DNA of 57,743 bases from Nitrospirae bacterium JdFR-86. Its GTDB lineage: Bacteria > Nitrospirota > Thermodesulfovibrionia > Thermodesulfovibrionales > JdFR-86. Shown one piece after another: positions 947 through 22,565 of the stretch (positions within the stretch are counted from its first letter, which is position 1; each line of letters begins with the position of its first letter). The position numbers and the translations under genes were made by a program. The notes below the pieces were generated by a model that had not been told where the DNA came from, did no database searches, and was given only the letters and a program-made list of their open reading frames with translations. The stretch covers positions 1 through 57,743 of the forward strand of contig MTOV01000018.1 of NCBI GenBank assembly GCA_002011815.1. Direction: 5' to 3'.

Positions 947-3655
947 TTATTGAAAACGTCCCAGAGAAATCTTTGCACCACCTTTGGTGAAAGCCCTGAA
1001 CTCACCTTTTTTGACTCCATCATAACTGTAGAGCATGACCATACCACGATTGCGAGGAGATGCACCACTGCCAATGACAATCTCTGCTTTGCCATCATGC
1101 TCTATGTCACCCACAGCAAGGTTTATCCCTGTCCAGGAGTTAACAGTAAAACTCTTCAGAAGGCTGCCATCTAAAGTATAGGTCTTTATAACAGCCTGTC
1201 CAGTCCGTGGATGTCTGCTTATAGCCAGCACGACCTCCACAGAGCCATCACCGTTGAGGTCTCCAGCTCCAATAGCAGGCCTTTGCCTGACCAGTGGCAC
1301 CCTTTTACCCCTTCTGTCCTTTCTGGTGGAGACATCAAAGCCTCCAATGTGCTCCACCTTCCACTCTGCCGATGTGGTATTTATCTTCCAGAACCTTATC
1401 TCCAGGATATCATTGTCCACAGCATGCATGGTAACAAGTTCAAAGAGGCCGTCATCATCAACGTCTGCCATGACTACCTGTGCTTCATGCACCTCATCGT
1501 ATGTGCTGAAGGCTACCCCTGTGTCTATGACCTCCTTGCCATCGTATCTGTAAAGTTTAATCGTAGGGGAAGCCCTCTTTCCACGAGTCACTGCCACCAC
1601 TATTTCCTCAACTCCATCACCGTCCACATCTCCTGAGGCAAGATTTACAGGATATTTACCTTCGTTAAACTTGAGCTTAAATCCCTCAATGGGTGTACCA
1701 TCTGCCTCAAAACCGTGAACCTGTCTCTTTTCAGAGCCCTTCAGGCGTACAGCCACCAGTATCTCATCCATACCATCGCCATCTATATCTCCAACAGCAA
1801 AGTCCTCAAGTCTGTACTTTTTGGAAACCACTTTTAGTTTCCACTCAGGCGTTCCATGGATGTCAAAGAATTTCAATATTGCCCTTTTCTTCACAGGAGT
1901 CTCCGGAGCTACAACTATATGTGTAGCCGCCTCTGGAGACAAGTACTCACCGTTAATCTCTATTTCTTGTCCTGAATCAATTGTAAAGGTTCGACTTAAA
2001 GGTTTCAAATACCTTAATACATGACCGAATGTGATTGTATATGTGCCAGGAACAATCTCATCGTAGCTCCAGAACTTTCCACCACCTGAGTATTCTACAG
2101 GACCACTGAGCACAAAATTGGCCTCGTCAATATTGCTCTTTACAATAACTGTCCCTGCATATATAACCTTTAGATAAACATCTATCTCCACTGCACTGGC
2201 ACCCACTGCATTGATTGTTATCTTTCCAGTATATATCCCTGGCTCTAATGGGGCAACATGTTCATTTAATGAGGCCGTTATAGTGCTTGGAGTAGTTCCT
2301 GAAGGCTCCTGGATGCTCAACCAGGGCACAGAAGCCGAGGCACTCCAGAGAAGTGCCTTGCCCGTGGACGAAATGGTAATACTTTCAGAGGGATATGATA
2401 ATGCTCCCTTTTGATACTTAAAGCTTATTGCTGACGGGGCGACCACAAGCGAGGATGGTAAAGGCTTTACCTCCAGAGAGACCTTAAGAACCGAAGCTAT
2501 CCCGGAAGACATAGTGAATCTTATGTAAGATGTATAAGTGCCTGGTAGCAGATTTGCAGGGTCTACTGAAATCTGCACGGTCTGAGGTGCCTGCCCTTGT
2601 GTGGGCGAAACAGATATCCAGTCTTCGGAAACCGAAGCAGTCCAGGACAGAGGGGTATCAGAGTCAAGGGTTACATCGGTAGATGTAGGCTGTCCTCCTT
2701 CAAATAAGGAGAAAACAATCTCCGAAGGAGTTATGGAAAGCCATGAATAAGACCCTATGCCTAAAACCTCAACCCTCTGATTGCCATTGTTTGAAACAAA
2801 TAGTTTTCCAGCCTTGTCAAAGGCTACATCCAGTGGAACCTTAAACTGGCCTTCTGCACTACCAAAACTGCCAATATAACCGAGGAAAGTGCCATCCCTT
2901 TTGTCGTAAACTGCAACTACTGAGTGGTAGGCCTCCGCTATATATAGTCTGTCTAAGTCAACAGCTAACCCATGAGGACGAAGAAGCTTGTTGCCTCCCG
3001 TGCTCCAGAGACTTCCACCGCCCCCTATATCCCTTCTCCAGTTGCCGTCAAGGTCATACACCCTTACGCGGGCATAGTTATGGTCAGCCACATAAACCTC
3101 GGCTGAGACTTCATCTACCACTATGCCTGTGGGAAACCCAAACGCTCCAAAAGAAAAGAGATATTGTCCTGTGATGCTATTGTAGACCTTAACAGTCTTT
3201 TTTGAGCTGTCAACAACATATACCCTGCCTCTGCTACTTGTTGCTATATCGTTTGGCATCCCGAACTCTCCATCCCCTGAGCCCAGTTTGTAAAGAAGCC
3301 TTCCCTGGACGTCATATACTGAGACATCTCCATGCTTGGTGCCAACGAATACCCTTCCTGTCTCATCGACTGCTATTCCCAGTGGTCTCTTTACAGGGAA
3401 ATGGGTTATCTCTATTCCGTTGTTTGACAGTATATGAACCCTGTCATAGTAGCTATTGGTGATATAGACATTACCACTGGAATCTGTGGCAATTCTCACA
3501 ATATCCGCTTGTGGTAGGGGGAAATAGCCCAGCGTCTTGACGGTTGGCATTACAGCCCCTTCGGAGATTCCTCCCGAAAAGACTATAAACAGGACTACCA
3601 GCCACCTTATAATCATCCACAGTTTCATCCTTAATGGGGAGAAAGCAAGCTTCAT
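947..3655 (-). CDS. Secreted NHL-repeat / BACON / VCBS-repeat protein
   Basis: A secreted protein of 902 residues. After a signal peptide (about residues 10-35) comes an NHL-type beta-propeller to about residue 300, with repeated blades such as GNVYITNSYYDRV and GRVYVVDSSKKTV. Two BACON/Ig-like domains follow (about 300-500; WISVSPTQG and WLSIQEPSG are their signatures), then a PEGA-like segment. The C-terminal half has five VCBS/FG-GAP calcium-type loops: DIDGDGMDE, DVDGDGVEE, DVDDDGLFE, DLNGDGSVE and DIEHDGKAE. No catalytic motif is visible, so a binding or scaffold role at the cell surface is inferred. It sits between two multiheme cytochrome genes in one probable operon. A second ATG at codon 10 could be the true start. 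Confidence 0.8.
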   Translation of the reverse strand: MKLAFSPLRMKLWMIIRWLVVLFIVFSGGISEGAVMPTVKTLGYFPLPQADIVRIATDSSGNVYITNSYYDRVHILSNNGIEITHFPVKRPLGIAVDETGRVFVGTKHGDVSVYDVQGRLLYKLGSGDGEFGMPNDIATSSRGRVYVVDSSKKTVKVYNSITGQYLFSFGAFGFPTGIVVDEVSAEVYVADHNYARVRVYDLDGNWRRDIGGGGSLWSTGGNKLLRPHGLAVDLDRLYIAEAYHSVVAVYDKRDGTFLGYIGSFGSAEGQFKVPLDVAFDKAGKLFVSNNGNQRVEVLGIGSYSWLSITPSEIVFSLFEGGQPTSTDVTLDSDTPLSWTASVSEDWISVSPTQGQAPQTVQISVDPANLLPGTYTSYIRFTMSSGIASVLKVSLEVKPLPSSLVVAPSAISFKYQKGALSYPSESITISSTGKALLWSASASVPWLSIQEPSGTTPSTITASLNEHVAPLEPGIYTGKITINAVGASAVEIDVYLKVIYAGTVIVKSNIDEANFVLSGPVEYSGGGKFWSYDEIVPGTYTITFGHVLRYLKPLSRTFTIDSGQEIEINGEYLSPEAATHIVVAPETPVKKRAILKFFDIHGTPEWKLKVVSKKYRLEDFAVGDIDGDGMDEILVAVRLKGSEKRQVHGFEADGTPIEGFKLKFNEGKYPVNLASGDVDGDGVEEIVVAVTRGKRASPTIKLYRYDGKEVIDTGVAFSTYDEVHEAQVVMADVDDDGLFELVTMHAVDNDILEIRFWKINTTSAEWKVEHIGGFDVSTRKDRRGKRVPLVRQRPAIGAGDLNGDGSVEVVLAISRHPRTGQAVIKTYTLDGSLLKSFTVNSWTGINLAVGDIEHDGKAEIVIGSGASPRNRGMVMLYSYDGVKKGEFRAFTKGGAKISLGRFQ

Positions 3656-17032: not shown

Positions 17033-17743
17033 ATGTATTTAGCTTATTTTGACGAAAACAAATACACAGATGATAATCCATATTTCATTGCTGGTGGTAT
17101 TCTCTTAAATGATGAAAATATAAGTGAGCTTGAAAATACTCTCAGCCAAATTCAATATAATTTTTTTGGTACCCGCATTCTGTCAAAGGATACTGAAATG
17201 CATGGTAAAGATATATTTCATGGGAAAGGTAATTGCAAAAGAAGATCTTTAAAAGATAGAGTTCAGTTATTTCAAGATATAGCATCTTTCCTTATTGATA
17301 ATAAAGTGCCATTAAGACTAGTTTGTATTGATGTTGAGGCTCATAGAGCAAAATATAAATATCCAGAACTGGAGTATCATTTAGGGCTGATGTTAATACT
17401 TGAACGTTTTTGTGACTATTTAGACCATGTAAATGATATAGGTATTGTTTTCGGTGATTATGAAAAAGATGAAATTGCTAAATCCGTTCTTGATTTTTCA
17501 CAATTTAAGATAAGAGGGAAAACGCCAATGTATTTCGGAAGACCATTGGGGCGTTTAGTTGACACCATCTACTTTACCCATTCCCACCATAGTCGTTTTC
17601 TTCAAGTTGCAGATATGATTGTTTTTTTAGCCGGACGATATGAAAATATTACTTCAGAACCAACTAAATGGCATGATAAGAAGATAAAAGAAGTGTGGGA
17701 TTCTATAAAAAAAGGAAACTATTATATTCAGCATTGGCCGTAA
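17033..17743 (+). CDS. DUF3800-family protein (predicted RNase H-fold nuclease)
   Basis: A protein of 236 residues starting MYLAYFDENK, the DUF3800 N-terminal strand with its acidic residue (usually YxDESG). It also has VFGDYEKDE and the C-terminal LQVADMIVFLAGRY segment that ends these proteins. DUF3800 members are predicted nucleases of unknown role, often found in mobile or defence-rich regions. The gene is clearly more AT-rich than its neighbours, and GTGATTTT stands in for a Shine-Dalgarno, suggesting recent acquisition. It is cargo of the island together with higBA. Confidence 0.8.
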   Translation: MYLAYFDENKYTDDNPYFIAGGILLNDENISELENTLSQIQYNFFGTRILSKDTEMHGKDIFHGKGNCKRRSLKDRVQLFQDIASFLIDNKVPLRLVCIDVEAHRAKYKYPELEYHLGLMLILERFCDYLDHVNDIGIVFGDYEKDEIAKSVLDFSQFKIRGKTPMYFGRPLGRLVDTIYFTHSHHSRFLQVADMIVFLAGRYENITSEPTKWHDKKIKEVWDSIKKGNYYIQHWP

Positions 17744-17808: not shown

Positions 17809-18248
17809 GTTTAATTATAACATAATAGAACATGTCCCAAAATTTGGGCATCGTGTGAAATAATAGTCAGGTCTTGCATGCCAACATATAGTTTACGAAC
17901 TGCAAACCTCGTCACCATCCCGTCAACAAGCCTTCCAAATTAACGTAAATATCTTGTCCTCAAGCTTCCATTCCCCACGCGCTCCCGCCATTTAAAATTA
18001 ATAATTTATGACATTCCACCGGCTATCCTCTGAAGCACCATTTAAGCGAAAGGCTGAAGTTGCGTCCGGATTATGCCCTCCTAACGTTTGCCTGTTTACA
18101 AAAAATATCTATAAATAGATATTTTTTACTGAATTAATATATGCTTATATAACTGTCATCCTGACGGGGCACGGTAGCCAGTGTTAAGTTAACGTCCGGT
18201 GTGGACAATAGAAATGGTTCTCTAAACACACTATTACATTAACAGAAA
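17809..18248. other. Gene-free stretch with palindromes and the right island border
   Basis: No open frame is supported. It holds a 13-bp palindrome CCCAAAATTTGGG (17836-17848), the right tRNA-like repeat (17974-17988) and a perfect AT hairpin AAAAAATATCTA/TAGATATTTTTT (18100-18111 and 18116-18127). The stretch before the regulator gene at 18249 shows no Shine-Dalgarno. Confidence 0.5.
17974..17990 (+). repeat. Right direct repeat: tRNA 3'-end fragment with CCA
   Basis: CCCACGCGCTCCCGC (17974-17988) is an exact copy of 16095-16109. Here it is followed by CA, giving GCGCTCCC-G-CCA, a complete 8-nt acceptor strand, discriminator G and CCA as in tRNA-Sec. Both copies are followed by a similar TTTAAAAT tail. 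The 1.9-kb segment between the copies carries higBA and the DUF3800 gene, as expected for an inserted element. Confidence 0.6.
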
Positions 18249-20351
18249 ATGAACGGACTCCCTTTTGCAGAACTAAGAGAGCCATACAGCTCGTTTCTTA
18301 ATGAGGGGCGCTGGAACGAGTATCTGAGCAGTCTCTGTGAAGACGGGCTCAAATGGTGGTTCAACATGGATACACCGGCAATCCTTGCCCATCTAATCCC
18401 GGTTGAGTCATTCCCTGTAGAGAAAACCTCCCTGCCGGAGAGACTGGTATTTCTGTCAGAAGCCGCCAAGCTCTCAATACCTGTTGAGAAGATGGATGCC
18501 TTCTTCAAACTCTTTATGGCTAAGGGGGATTTTGAGGCGGCATCTGCTGCCGCAGGTGCAGGCACTGCCTCTGTATGGGACAGCGGAAGGGAATTTCAGA
18601 GATATGCCCTCTGGTATGAGAGAATAAACAAACTTCTTAGGACAAAAGACCGCCTGTCTCCCCTTGCAGTATCCTCACTTTTAGGGTTTAAGGCTCTTGT
18701 GGAACTCACAGGCGAAGGGGATATAAAGAAGGCATATGAGACATATATGAAACAGCGCCTCTGGGCTGAAAAAGCCGGAGCACATTCACTCATGGTCTAT
18801 TTTGCTGCTGCCTGCTCATACTGCCTTATATGGATGGGAAGGCTTTCAGAGGCAGAAGTGATAATGACCGATGCCGAAGTCCTCTGCAGTACTCCGGATA
18901 CAAACCTTGTGGTAAGAATCTATTTTCAGACAACCCGCGGGCTTTTTTACTTTGTAAAAGGCAAGCCTGATAAGGCAGAGGAGATACTTAAGGGTGTAGT
19001 AAGTCTGCCGTTTTTTGAAGAGCTTCCCCCGCCTGCCTACTTTCTGGGCTATGGTCACCTGTTGCTTACCGTGGCAAACAAGGGGAAGGAACAAGCCATC
19101 GAGGCAATAGCACAAAAACTCCGTGCCCGTGCAATACCTGAGCAGAACTATTTCCACTACTCCTATCTTCACTACAACCTTGGCACAGCCTATCTGATGA
19201 TTGGCGAGCCCCACAAGGCTCTTGTCCATGGTAACGAAGCACTCGAGAGAGGGCGCTTAAGCAAAAGCCACGTTGCAGAGCAGATACCTGCCCTTGTCTT
19301 TGGTCAGGCTCTTTCAGATATGAACAAGAACGACAGGGCATTAGAGCATTTCCTTCAGTGGCTTAAGCGGTGGAAAAAGAGCGGCTTCTTTATCCTTGCC
19401 TCATCAGGAGCTTTTGAGATTGCCTGCCTTTATCTCAAAATGGGGATGATAGACAAAGCAAGGGAGTACTTCAAAAAGGCATCAACTCTAATGCCGGAGG
19501 GTGAGAAGATTGCCCATCTGAACCGTTCTGAGGAATTTTTCAAGAAGATAGAGAGTTCATTATATCCTTCTGAAAAACACATAGATGTGATTACAGACCT
19601 TGAGAGAATGCCTGTCTGCATTACCACTTTTGGAGACCTCCAGATAAGGGTAGGCGAATCAGTAATTTATGACCGTAAGTGGAGGGGCGGCCGCACCAAG
19701 ACACTCCTTAAAGCCCTTATTGTGTTCGGAGGCACAAAGGTCTCGTACAACCTCCTTATTGACACCCTCTGGCCTGACACAGAGGGTGATATCGCAGAAA
19801 ACAACCTCAAGGTGGCTGTGTCAAGGCTAAGGAGGATTGGTTGCCGCCGGGGAGAAAAACCCATACAGTGGATACTTGTCAAGCAGAGGAAGATTTCCCT
19901 GGCACGACCGCTGTGTGCAGTGGATTCTATAATCTTCAAGGAGACGGTAGACAGGGCACTCAAAGAAAGAAAGGACATTGCACTTTTGATGAAGGCACTC
20001 GATTTGTACCGTGATGACTTCCTTGCCAGAGACCAGAGCGAGACATGGATCATAAGACACCGTGAGATCCTGAGGGAGGATTTTGTAAAAGGGGCAATCC
20101 TTCTTTATGAACTGTGCAGGGAAAGCGGTGATATCAATGAGTCCCTGCCTTATCTTTATCGTGCAGTTGAGCGTGACCCTTTAGATGAAGAGATATATTC
20201 CGTTTTGATGGAGTTGTACTTGGAGCTTGGTTATCCGTCAAAAGCTATTCAGACCTACAAACAGGCTGAGGAAATCCTGAAAAAGGAACTGGATATTGCC
20301 CCTGGTCCAGCACTTCAGGCACTTGCCCGAAAGGCTGGAATGAAGATATAA
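18249..20351 (+). CDS. SARP/BTAD-type transcriptional regulator with TPR-like region
   Basis: A protein of 700 residues. Residues 1-450 are helical, TPR-like repeats (HKALVHGNEALERG, GMIDKAREYFKKASTLMPEG). Residues about 454-545 form an OmpR-type winged helix of the SARP kind (FGDLQIRVG, WRGGRTKTLLKALI, LIDTLWPDTEGDIAENNLKVAVSRLRR). Residues about 555-695 are the bacterial transcriptional activator (BTAD) domain, ending LDIAPGPALQALARKAG. No P-loop NTPase domain is present, unlike large AfsR/MalT-like proteins. SARPs bind direct heptamer repeats upstream of target promoters; such repeats lie in the next intergenic region, so the repeat lipoprotein is a likely target. Confidence 0.88.
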   Translation: MNGLPFAELREPYSSFLNEGRWNEYLSSLCEDGLKWWFNMDTPAILAHLIPVESFPVEKTSLPERLVFLSEAAKLSIPVEKMDAFFKLFMAKGDFEAASAAAGAGTASVWDSGREFQRYALWYERINKLLRTKDRLSPLAVSSLLGFKALVELTGEGDIKKAYETYMKQRLWAEKAGAHSLMVYFAAACSYCLIWMGRLSEAEVIMTDAEVLCSTPDTNLVVRIYFQTTRGLFYFVKGKPDKAEEILKGVVSLPFFEELPPPAYFLGYGHLLLTVANKGKEQAIEAIAQKLRARAIPEQNYFHYSYLHYNLGTAYLMIGEPHKALVHGNEALERGRLSKSHVAEQIPALVFGQALSDMNKNDRALEHFLQWLKRWKKSGFFILASSGAFEIACLYLKMGMIDKAREYFKKASTLMPEGEKIAHLNRSEEFFKKIESSLYPSEKHIDVITDLERMPVCITTFGDLQIRVGESVIYDRKWRGGRTKTLLKALIVFGGTKVSYNLLIDTLWPDTEGDIAENNLKVAVSRLRRIGCRRGEKPIQWILVKQRKISLARPLCAVDSIIFKETVDRALKERKDIALLMKALDLYRDDFLARDQSETWIIRHREILREDFVKGAILLYELCRESGDINESLPYLYRAVERDPLDEEIYSVLMELYLELGYPSKAIQTYKQAEEILKKELDIAPGPALQALARKAGMKI

Positions 20352-20399
20352 ACCTGCCTCTGCCGTTCTAACTGCACAATCTGCAAAAAATCCCAACTG

Positions 20400-20445
20400 T
20401 GTAACCAAACCTGTTACCTTTTTGTAACCTCCTGTGTGATATAGA
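20400..20445 (+). promoter_or_regulatory. Three direct heptamers with -10 box: candidate SARP operator
   Basis: TGTAACC (20400-20406), TGTTACC (20412-20418) and TGTAACC (20423-20429) repeat at 12- and 11-bp spacing on the same helix face. A -10-like TATAGA (20440-20445) follows 10 bp later. SARP regulators recognise heptamer direct repeats at 11-bp spacing just upstream of the -10 box. The array lies between the SARP gene and the lipoprotein gene. Confidence 0.6.
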
Positions 20446-20511
20446 AAAAGCGTAAAAGAGCTAGAGGGCTTCAGTGATTAACCTTAATTAAATTTGAAAA
20501 AGGAGGTAACG

Positions 20512-22146
20512 ATGAGGACAGGCAGGTTATTGGTTTTTGTATTATTATGTTTCTTAATGCTTACTGCATGCGGAGACGACGACGGAGGCACAACCACCAC
20601 AGGGACGACTACAGGAAGCTCTGATACCACTGCACCGGCAGTCAGCTCTATATCCCCTGCTGACGGTGCAACAGGCATCGAGCCCAACACCACAGTAACA
20701 GCCACCTTCAGTGAAAACATAGACTGCGCAACAGTCAGCACCTCAACATTCACCCTGAAGAAAGCCGGCAGCACTGTCTCAGGCAGTGTAACCTGCAATA
20801 ACGATACCGCTGTATTCACCCCGTCAGGTGAGCTTGCCTTTTCCACTCAATACACTGCCACGGTTACAACCGGCATCAAGGACACAGCAGGCAATGCCCT
20901 TTCTGCTGACTACTCATGGAGTTTTACCGTGAGGGATGGAATCTGGGGAACTGAAGAGATTATCGAGACAGGCAGTGAAGGTGCTGAATATCCTCAGGCA
21001 GCAATAAATGCAGACGGAAAGGCAGCGGCTGTGTGGAAACAGTGGGACGGCTTAGCATACAGCATCTACGCAAATGTTTACGACGGGGCAGCATGGGGAA
21101 CTGAAGAGATTATCGATGCAGGCAGTGGAGATGCTGCATATCCTCCTCAGGTGGCGATAAATGCAAACGGAAAGGCAGTGGCTGTGTGGGATCAGTGGGA
21201 CGGCACGGCATACAACATCCACGCAAATGTTTACGACGGGGCAGCATGGGGAACTGCGGAGATTATCGATGCAGGCAGTGGAGATGCCTACACGCCTCAG
21301 GTGGCAATGAACGCAGACGGAAAGGCAATGGCTGTGTGGAGACAGAATGACGGCTCAGTATACAGCATCTACGCAAATGTTTACGACGGGGCAGCGTGGG
21401 GAACTGCGGAGATTATCGAGACAGGCAGTGGAGATGCCTACACGCCTCAGGTGGCAATAAATGCAGACGGAAAGGCAGTGGCAGTGTGGCAGCTGTGGGA
21501 CGGCACGACAGGCAGCATCTACGCAAATGTCTATAACGGGACATCATGGGGAACTGAAGAGCTTATCGAGGCAGGCAGTGGAACTGCTGGACAGCCTCAG
21601 GTGGCGATGAACGCAGACGGAAAAGCAGTGGCTGTGTGGAGACAGAATGACGGCTCAGTATACAGCATCTACGCAAATGTTTACGACGGGGCAGCGTGGG
21701 GAACTGCGGAGCTTATCGAGACAGGCAGTGGAGGTGCTGCATCTCCTCAGGTGGCGCTGAGCGCAGACGGAAAGGCTGTGGCTGTGTGGCAGCAGTGGGA
21801 CGGCTCAGCATACAGCATCTATGTAAATGTGTATAACGGGACATCATGGGGAACTGAAGAGCTTATCGAGACAGGCATTGGAGATGCTGCATCTCCTCAA
21901 GTGGCAATGAACGCAGACGGAAAGGCAGTGGCTGTGTGGCAGCAGTGGGACGGCACGGCATACAACATCTACGCAAATGTGTATAACGGGACAGCATGGG
22001 GAACTGCGGAGCTTATCGAGACAGGCAGTGGGGATGCTGACTATCCTCAGGTGGCAATAAATGCAAACGGAAGGGCAATGGCTGTGTGGCAGCAGTTTGA
22101 AGGCTCAAGCTCAACACTCAGTATCTATGCGAATGTGTATAAGTAA
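20512..22146 (+). CDS. Lipoprotein with Ig-like domain and eight near-identical 50-residue repeats
   Basis: Starts at ATG 20512, directly after AGGAGGTAACG. Signal peptide with lipobox LTAC (lipidated C20; Gly at +2 suggests the outer membrane), then a short Thr/Gly linker. An SbsA/Big_5-like Ig domain (about 40-140; PADGATGIEPNTTVTATFSE) follows. Eight tandem units of about 50 residues come next, each with WGTxE(I/L)I, PQVAxNADGKAxAVW and Y(S/N)IYANVY. Unit number and pattern suggest an eight-bladed beta-propeller. No catalytic residues are recognised. It stands alone after a SARP-type regulator gene and is probably a surface protein under its control. Confidence 0.85.
   Translation: MRTGRLLVFVLLCFLMLTACGDDDGGTTTTGTTTGSSDTTAPAVSSISPADGATGIEPNTTVTATFSENIDCATVSTSTFTLKKAGSTVSGSVTCNNDTAVFTPSGELAFSTQYTATVTTGIKDTAGNALSADYSWSFTVRDGIWGTEEIIETGSEGAEYPQAAINADGKAAAVWKQWDGLAYSIYANVYDGAAWGTEEIIDAGSGDAAYPPQVAINANGKAVAVWDQWDGTAYNIHANVYDGAAWGTAEIIDAGSGDAYTPQVAMNADGKAMAVWRQNDGSVYSIYANVYDGAAWGTAEIIETGSGDAYTPQVAINADGKAVAVWQLWDGTTGSIYANVYNGTSWGTEELIEAGSGTAGQPQVAMNADGKAVAVWRQNDGSVYSIYANVYDGAAWGTAELIETGSGGAASPQVALSADGKAVAVWQQWDGSAYSIYVNVYNGTSWGTEELIETGIGDAASPQVAMNADGKAVAVWQQWDGTAYNIYANVYNGTAWGTAELIETGSGDADYPQVAINANGRAMAVWQQFEGSSSTLSIYANVYK
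20944..22143 (+). repeat. Eight tandem in-frame repeats of about 150 bp
   Basis: Units begin at successive TGGGGAACT sites and are highly alike at DNA level; long stretches such as GGCAGTGGAGATGC and GCAAATGTTTACGACGGGGC recur nearly unchanged, including at silent positions. This points to recent expansion or gene conversion. One unit has an extra codon (CCTCCT). Confidence 0.9.
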
Positions 22147-22196: not shown

Positions 22197-22397
22197 ATGC
22201 CCGCAAGTCAGAGAGAGGATAGATTCAGGGAAGAAGACGGGAAGGAGGTTTACCTTCTCAGGATATTCAGAAGGGGCAAAAAGCCAGGTGAGACCCTTGT
22301 GGGAACAGTAGAGGAAATAAGGGGCAGAAGAAAGGGAAAATTCAAGACAGGAAAGGAGCTTCTGGACTGGTTGATGAATAACGCCCCTGACAGGTAA
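22197..22397 (+). CDS. Small conserved-looking hypothetical protein
   Basis: A protein of 66 residues from ATG 22197 (an in-frame ATG at 22155 is less likely, lying just after the lipoprotein stop). It is rich in Arg/Lys/Gly and ends in GKFKTGKELLDWLMNNAPDR. The pattern of a short beta segment (EVYLLRIFRRGKK, ETLVGTVEEIRG) and a final amphipathic helix (ELLDWL) resembles small proteins common beside regulators, but I cannot name a family. Confidence 0.5.
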   Translation: MPASQREDRFREEDGKEVYLLRIFRRGKKPGETLVGTVEEIRGRRKGKFKTGKELLDWLMNNAPDR

Positions 22398-22436: not shown

Positions 22437-22565
22437 ATGAATAACAGGGGGCTGAACGCAATACTGGGCATGGCAGTTGGCGGACTGCTGATTAAGTTTG
22501 GCTCGCAGGCAAAAGGCAGGGGCAGTGCTTCGGCTGATGACTACTGGTATTACGACTCCAGTTGA
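22437..22565 (+). CDS. Tiny hypothetical protein, possibly frameshifted at its C-terminus
   Basis: A 42-residue frame preceded by GGGAGGGTGGC, a good Shine-Dalgarno. It reads MNNRGLNAILGMAVGGLLIK and ends in DDYWYYDSS; the middle is a short hydrophobic helix. Right after its end, the +1 frame continues from 22537 to 22650 as a Gly/Glu/Ser-rich acidic tail ending SGDWDDD. One longer membrane-linked, glycine-rich protein may therefore have been split by a frameshift. Function unknown. Confidence 0.45.
   Translation: MNNRGLNAILGMAVGGLLIKFGSQAKGRGSASADDYWYYDSS

Follow-up and report, generated by a model that had tools for sequence, protein, structure and literature searches.

A candidate SARP-like switch outside Actinobacteria: a TPR-winged helix-BTAD regulator and its heptamer array in a Nitrospirota order

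A gene of Nitrospirae bacterium JdFR-86, located at 18249..20351 on the forward strand of the 57,743-nucleotide stretch of DNA analysed here (contig MTOV01000018.1, hereafter the window), is likely to encode a SARP-like transcription activator, built of TPR helices followed C-terminally by a winged helix and a BTAD domain, which would act at repeats in the -35 position and drive the operon directly downstream. In the mechanism proposed, each TGTWACC repeat would be occupied by one monomer of the regulator, the monomers lining up head to tail on a single face of the DNA, in the place normally taken by a -35 element. From there they would recruit RNA polymerase to a promoter that possesses a -10 box but lacks a usable -35, in the manner of AfsR at the afsS promoter. 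The only such promoter of the window's genome would drive an operon made up of a repeat-rich surface lipoprotein and then a small protein. The same explanation, judged likely as a whole, holds that many BTAD regulators of the order work alike on versions of ATCTGTAACC, and that the small protein is the target they share across the order, to which individual lineages add surface proteins of their own. What was computed is the anatomy of the circuit, its conservation and geometry, the covariation and the genomic association; binding of the regulator to the array, and activation rather than repression, are what these sequence comparisons suggest. The joint recurrence of regulator, three-repeat switch and small protein across the order suggests a regulatory circuit beyond Actinobacteria.

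The regulator is encoded by a single open reading frame of 700 amino acids, in which about 440 residues of TPR helices are followed by the winged helix and the C-terminal BTAD. The N-terminal helical region (residues 1-438; 18249..19562, forward strand, as are all the features of the window given below) is matched by several TPR families of Pfam ahead of the BTAD and was modelled by AlphaFold2 as helices over residues 7-438, most residues having a pLDDT of 70-90. It constitutes a putative sensor or partner-binding part, through which the regulator may sense its signal. The BTAD domain (residues 559-694; 19923..20330) was recognized by PF03704 with an E-value of 9.3e-22. The winged-helix DNA-binding domain (residues 455-555; 19611..19913) was delimited by a weak Trans_reg_C match, by an AfsR profile match and by helix alignment, which also placed the recognition helix, AENNLKVAVSRLRR, at residues 516-529 (19794-19835). 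In this region the Pfam score was 19.0 bits over residues 485-529, under the cut-off of 26.2, residues 441-563 were modelled with a pLDDT below 50, leaving the winged helix poorly defined, and a direct sequence search of the PDB with the winged-helix stretch alone returned no match. A profile built from ten homologues, with the window's regulator as first sequence, aligned with both SARP domains of AfsR (8hvr_I, profile positions 26-252 with chain residues 65-282) with an E-value of 1e-16. Pfam and this profile uphold the domain assignment of the initial annotation, a SARP winged helix and a BTAD behind some 450 TPR-like residues, the TPR part being closer to 440. Further upstream, the window holds a gene for a DUF3800 protein (17033-17743) and a perfect inverted repeat, AAAAAATATCTATAAATAGATATTTTTT (18098-18130), which could be a terminator or an operator.

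Behind the regulator gene stand three direct heptamers, TGTAACC (20400..20406), TGTTACC (20412..20418; 12 bp after the first) and TGTAACC (20423..20429; 11 bp after the second), followed 10 nt later by the -10 box TATAGA (20440..20445), exactly as had been described beforehand. No good -35 precedes TATAGA, the sequence at 20417-20422 being CCTTTT, and transcription is predicted to start near 20452. The single word TGTWACC is not significantly enriched in the window (13 occurrences against 9.5 expected), so that only the arrangement counts: simulated windows contained 0.0075 pairs and 0 triplets, and a search of the 2.1-Mb genome found the paired word at this one place, with no second exact pair and none for the reversed control. 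It could be argued from the expected frequency of the word that three similar words lie near a promoter by chance and have no function. This reading, to which we give almost no credence, is refuted for practical purposes by the exact conservation of the array in an orthologous locus, and is further opposed by the order-wide recurrence at 11 bp only and by the covariation described below. Visual inspection showed no operator-like repeats ahead of the regulator gene of the window; elsewhere, such repeats are found 77 bp before a BTAD gene (L149, 10125, minus strand), pointing to possible autoregulation in some lineages.

The nearest orthologue, from Nitrospirae HyVt-545 (locus L007, genome G373), shares 75% identity with the window's regulator and is followed by three TGTAACC heptamers at identical spacings of 12 and 11 bp, with TATAAA at the identical distance of 10 nt. 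The remaining intergenic DNA has diverged and the following gene is a different one, no lipoprotein being found there. Absence of the array beside homologous regulators had been named as the observation that would overturn the initial proposal; beside this orthologue it is present. A third orthologue (58% identity, genome G395) has no array at the regulator's 3' end, and in its genome five promoters match TGTWACC N4 TGTAACC N10 TATA exactly, one of which heads a surface-protein operon located before the regulator gene. In contigs C43 and C173 (L214, L215) of this genome, 69 identical bases lie upstream of the arrays, after the ends of diverged paralogous genes, and since the sequence further out differs these were counted as two promoters. 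Exact array promoters occur, among 396 genomes of the phylum, only in the window's own (G000), in G373, in G395 and in G306; with up to 1 mismatch allowed, the reversed pattern matched 2 times in total across those 396 genomes. In addition, a decayed orthologue without the winged helix was found in G190 (L010), and that genome is without arrays. Within the family to which the window belongs, no close relative yielded a full-length orthologue; the search of genome contigs gave one orthologue only, the closest named relative being a Nitrospirae genome.

These comparisons bear on the prediction, made in the initial annotation, of a one-target switch for the repeat lipoprotein. The array is indeed the sole exact pair of the window's genome and stands directly before the lipoprotein gene, as a dedicated switch serving that protein would require. 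However, the HyVt-545 locus retains the regulator, the array and the small gene without the lipoprotein, and the third orthologue's genome has five promoters. A single target in this genome fits these results, but the lipoprotein as defining target finds no support, the small protein being what the loci share, and a switch whose purpose is the lipoprotein is considered rather unlikely.

The predicted target lipoprotein (20512..22146, ATG at 20512 behind AAGGAGG) has a signal peptide with an LTAC lipobox, a Big_5 domain and eight WGTxE repeats of about 50 amino acids. The small protein (66 amino acids; 22197..22397) begins 50 bp after it and 1.8 kb from the array; its gene probably belongs to the same operon, with which it would be co-transcribed, and an open reading frame of 42 amino acids (MNNRGLNAILGMAVGG...; 22437..22565), without a Pfam match, is a possible last gene. 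In L007 the first gene after the array encodes a 62-amino-acid protein whose window homologue is this protein behind the lipoprotein, the two sharing 50% identity, and identity to the first post-array gene of contig C341 in G395 is 59%. The family has no name and comprises proteins of 50-70 residues with the core YIxRIYRR...LVGxVE...F...EL, often encoded by the first gene after an array. Its link with BTAD genes is close: of the 32 strong matches obtained in 176 genomes, 30 are located no more than 6 kb away from a BTAD gene and share its strand, and 28 of the 32 genomes with the family also have a BTAD gene (p 4e-17). No credible match was obtained in Pfam or NCBIfam, nor any match to PDB sequences; the model of the window protein consists of three strands and a helix (beta-beta-beta-alpha, pLDDT 74), and a fold search with it returned nothing below an E-value of 0.37 and no convincing match.

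Copies or possible remnants of this protein appear in other contexts. In one copy (L094 4615-5058, G004) the domain is joined to PilZ, a c-di-GMP-binding domain (Pfam 1.8e-10), and another copy continues in frame into a signal peptide and the outer-membrane efflux-like protein behind it (L206 703-2382, G377), either as a fusion or as an overlapping start. Moreover, the signal peptide of one beta-helix protein (L020 ~1300-1348, minus strand; G395:C257) is preceded by RFKTASELPGWL, which resembles the small protein's C-terminal motif and could be a remnant or a frameshifted copy. As regards the other targets, they are surface beta-helix, FG-GAP or IPTL-CTERM proteins in G395 and G157, and one in G108 is a spore-coat-U/Csu-type pilin. 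In family f6 (G135, G383, G412) the genes behind many arrays have signalling functions, with kinases and receiver-domain proteins among their products, as read from the sequences.

BTAD genes are present in 44 of the 176 genomes of the order. Sixty regions around such genes were retrieved, and 63 loci across the order entered an analysis of repeats in which no word was assumed beforehand. In their noncoding DNA, identical 6-mers and 7-mers recur at a period of 11, periods of 10, 12 and 22 being barely represented. The commonest words are parts of ATCTGTAACC, no shared word emerging from the other periods. Pairs of TGTA number 39 at 11 bp against 0-8 at other distances, with further echoes of TGTAA at distances of 22 and 33. 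Among 68 BTAD genes, 27 have an ATCTGT-type pair with a TA box behind them, compared with 12 of 330 other genes of those loci (p 1e-14), other spacings giving 0-5 and shuffles 0.47 of 68. The distance from the array to the best -10 hexamer is 10 nt in 20 of 27 arrays. Roughly 60% of BTAD genes have no clear array directly downstream. Of the 34 exact operator matches of the order, 31 fall within the 44 genomes that carry BTAD genes.

The operator words vary among loci (TAACC, TAGGT, TGGGT, TGACC), and they do so in concert. Within an array, positions 7-10 of one copy vary jointly with those of the other: 3.04 of these 4 bases are identical, against 1.72 after copies have been swapped among loci, none of 10,000 such shuffles reaching the observed value. 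The variation also follows the protein: where the helix position of the window's K521 is Glu or Asp, 13 arrays out of 13 have G at operator position 9, and where no acidic residue is found G occurs in 1 of 18 upstream and 3 of 18 downstream copies. This association (p 7e-8 and 3e-6 for the upstream and downstream copies, respectively) ranks first in excess mutual information among all pairs tested; the rows being related by descent, these p-values are too small, although several families take part. In its complex with DNA, AfsR reads two bases per repeat through R92 and T88 of the recognition helix, and R87 touches the backbone beside them (PMC10936776). Using the SRLR motif as anchor, R526, V522 and K521 of the window's regulator would correspond to AfsR R92, T88 and R87.

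A serious alternative arises from the fact that the PHO boxes of the order are nearly the BTAD operator word. On this account the array would be a site for PhoB, a response regulator of the OmpR family, the lipoprotein a phosphate-starvation gene and the BTAD gene a mere neighbour. Indeed, TGTAACA N4 TGTAACA, with the identical 11-bp spacing, is found before pstS/pstC in the order, being exact in most of the genomes read at the pstS promoters (L234-L252) and one base off the BTAD operator, and such boxes diluted one test of operators against BTAD genes, as was revealed on reading the matches in BTAD-free genomes. PhoP and AfsR are, moreover, known to compete for overlapping sites at afsS in Streptomyces (PMC4415409; PMC10972967). 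Nevertheless, the last base separates the two sites: in G000, G373 and G395, all 16 array heptamers near BTAD genes or in the G395 promoter set end in C, and all 6 at pstS end in A (p 1e-5). The window's array (TGTWACC) is unlike the pst box of its own genome (TGTAACA at pstS), a box in which one heptamer copy only is good. Furthermore, exact operators concentrate in BTAD-carrying genomes, one operator base changes with the recognition helix of the BTAD protein, and no phosphate genes are found among the BTAD-adjacent targets read. A PhoB site is, in consequence, held to be improbable, and cross-talk between PhoB and the BTAD regulator, as between PhoP and AfsR in Streptomyces, is possible.

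If the BTAD protein binds the array, it might still act as a repressor or roadblock, given that activation cannot be proved by geometry alone. Against this, the repeats occupy the -35 position, the -10 lies at a fixed distance and there is no match to a -35, all as in activator-dependent AfsR promoters (PMC10936776), and a repressor or roadblock role is regarded as very improbable. Beyond the activator reading preferred here, a wider scheme may be put forward tentatively, with rather less than even confidence: the order would use AfsR/AfsS-like circuits with a readable recognition code (an acidic helix residue specifying G, others C), each BTAD activator driving a dedicated beta-beta-beta-alpha small protein that would feed back on the regulator or tune surface or biofilm genes, perhaps via c-di-GMP, a role suggested by the PilZ fusion of one small-protein copy.

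A recent review considered SARPs exclusive to actinobacteria (PMC10972967), whereas BTAD regulators with SARP-type operators recur through a Nitrospirota order, and a search covering few subscription journals found no paper on BTAD operators in this phylum. Since the operator word shifts with one residue of the recognition helix, the specificity of the family becomes predictable and testable. This provides a route to regulons in organisms that are mostly uncultured, as well as a first lead on a common small-protein family whose genes almost always adjoin BTAD genes.

As regards its place among known systems, the protein has the OmpR-type winged helix followed by a BTAD that defines SARPs, the winged helix by itself being below the Pfam cut-off, and its array shows the expected direct repeats with an 11-bp (or 22-bp) period, 11 bp for the inner and 12 bp for the outer spacing and 11 order-wide. 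The 10 nt between the 3' repeat and the -10 in the window and in 20 of 27 arrays exceed by 2 nt the quoted SARP rule of about 8 bp, but would fit AfsR if the 11-bp repeat of that protein were counted as a heptamer. On the other hand, the DNA-binding part and the BTAD lie at residues 455-694 of 700 and not at the N-terminus, the host belongs to the Nitrospirota and not to the Actinobacteria, and the downstream genes in the window's genome and the two orthologue genomes encode lipoprotein, surface beta-helix, other secreted and small proteins, with no secondary-metabolite control among them. It is for these three reasons that the regulator is named SARP-like. With this proviso, the likeness to streptomycete SARPs and their operators outside Actinobacteria, as claimed at the outset, is borne out by domains and repeat geometry.

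The closest parallel is AfsR of Streptomyces coelicolor (PDB 8hvr, 8jke, 8k60), whose winged helix and BTAD are sequence-related across both domains. Both regulators have TPR domains, the afsS promoter likewise has 11-bp direct repeats and no good -35, and a small protein is the conserved target in both circuits. When the start of the -10 is set at -12, TGTAACC would coincide with the first seven of the 8 bp contacted per AfsR repeat, the invariant T of TGT with the T read by R92, and operator positions 8-9 would come opposite the covarying part of the helix (PMC10936776). The differences are that the DNA-binding part is N-terminal in AfsR and C-terminal here, that no NOD/ATPase domain was found in the window's protein, that the heptamer and the host phylum differ, that the targets are surface proteins instead of antibiotic genes, and that the small protein is beta-beta-beta-alpha by model and of uncertain kinship with AfsS. 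PimR and other SARP-LAL regulators also use three heptamers (CGGCAAG) with 4-5-bp spacers at a single target gene (PMC5930380), but with another word and another domain order, and for antifungal biosynthesis in actinobacteria. The PHO box of PhoB/PhoP resembles the array in its two 7-bp direct repeats, 4-bp spacers, OmpR-type winged helix and, within the order, near-identical word, and differs in its last base (A against C in the genomes compared), its position near phosphate genes and its lack of a BTAD link. Finally, EmbR of Mycobacterium (PDB 2fez) shares the winged helix and BTAD, but has an FHA domain and an N-terminal DNA-binding part, and belongs to the Actinobacteria.
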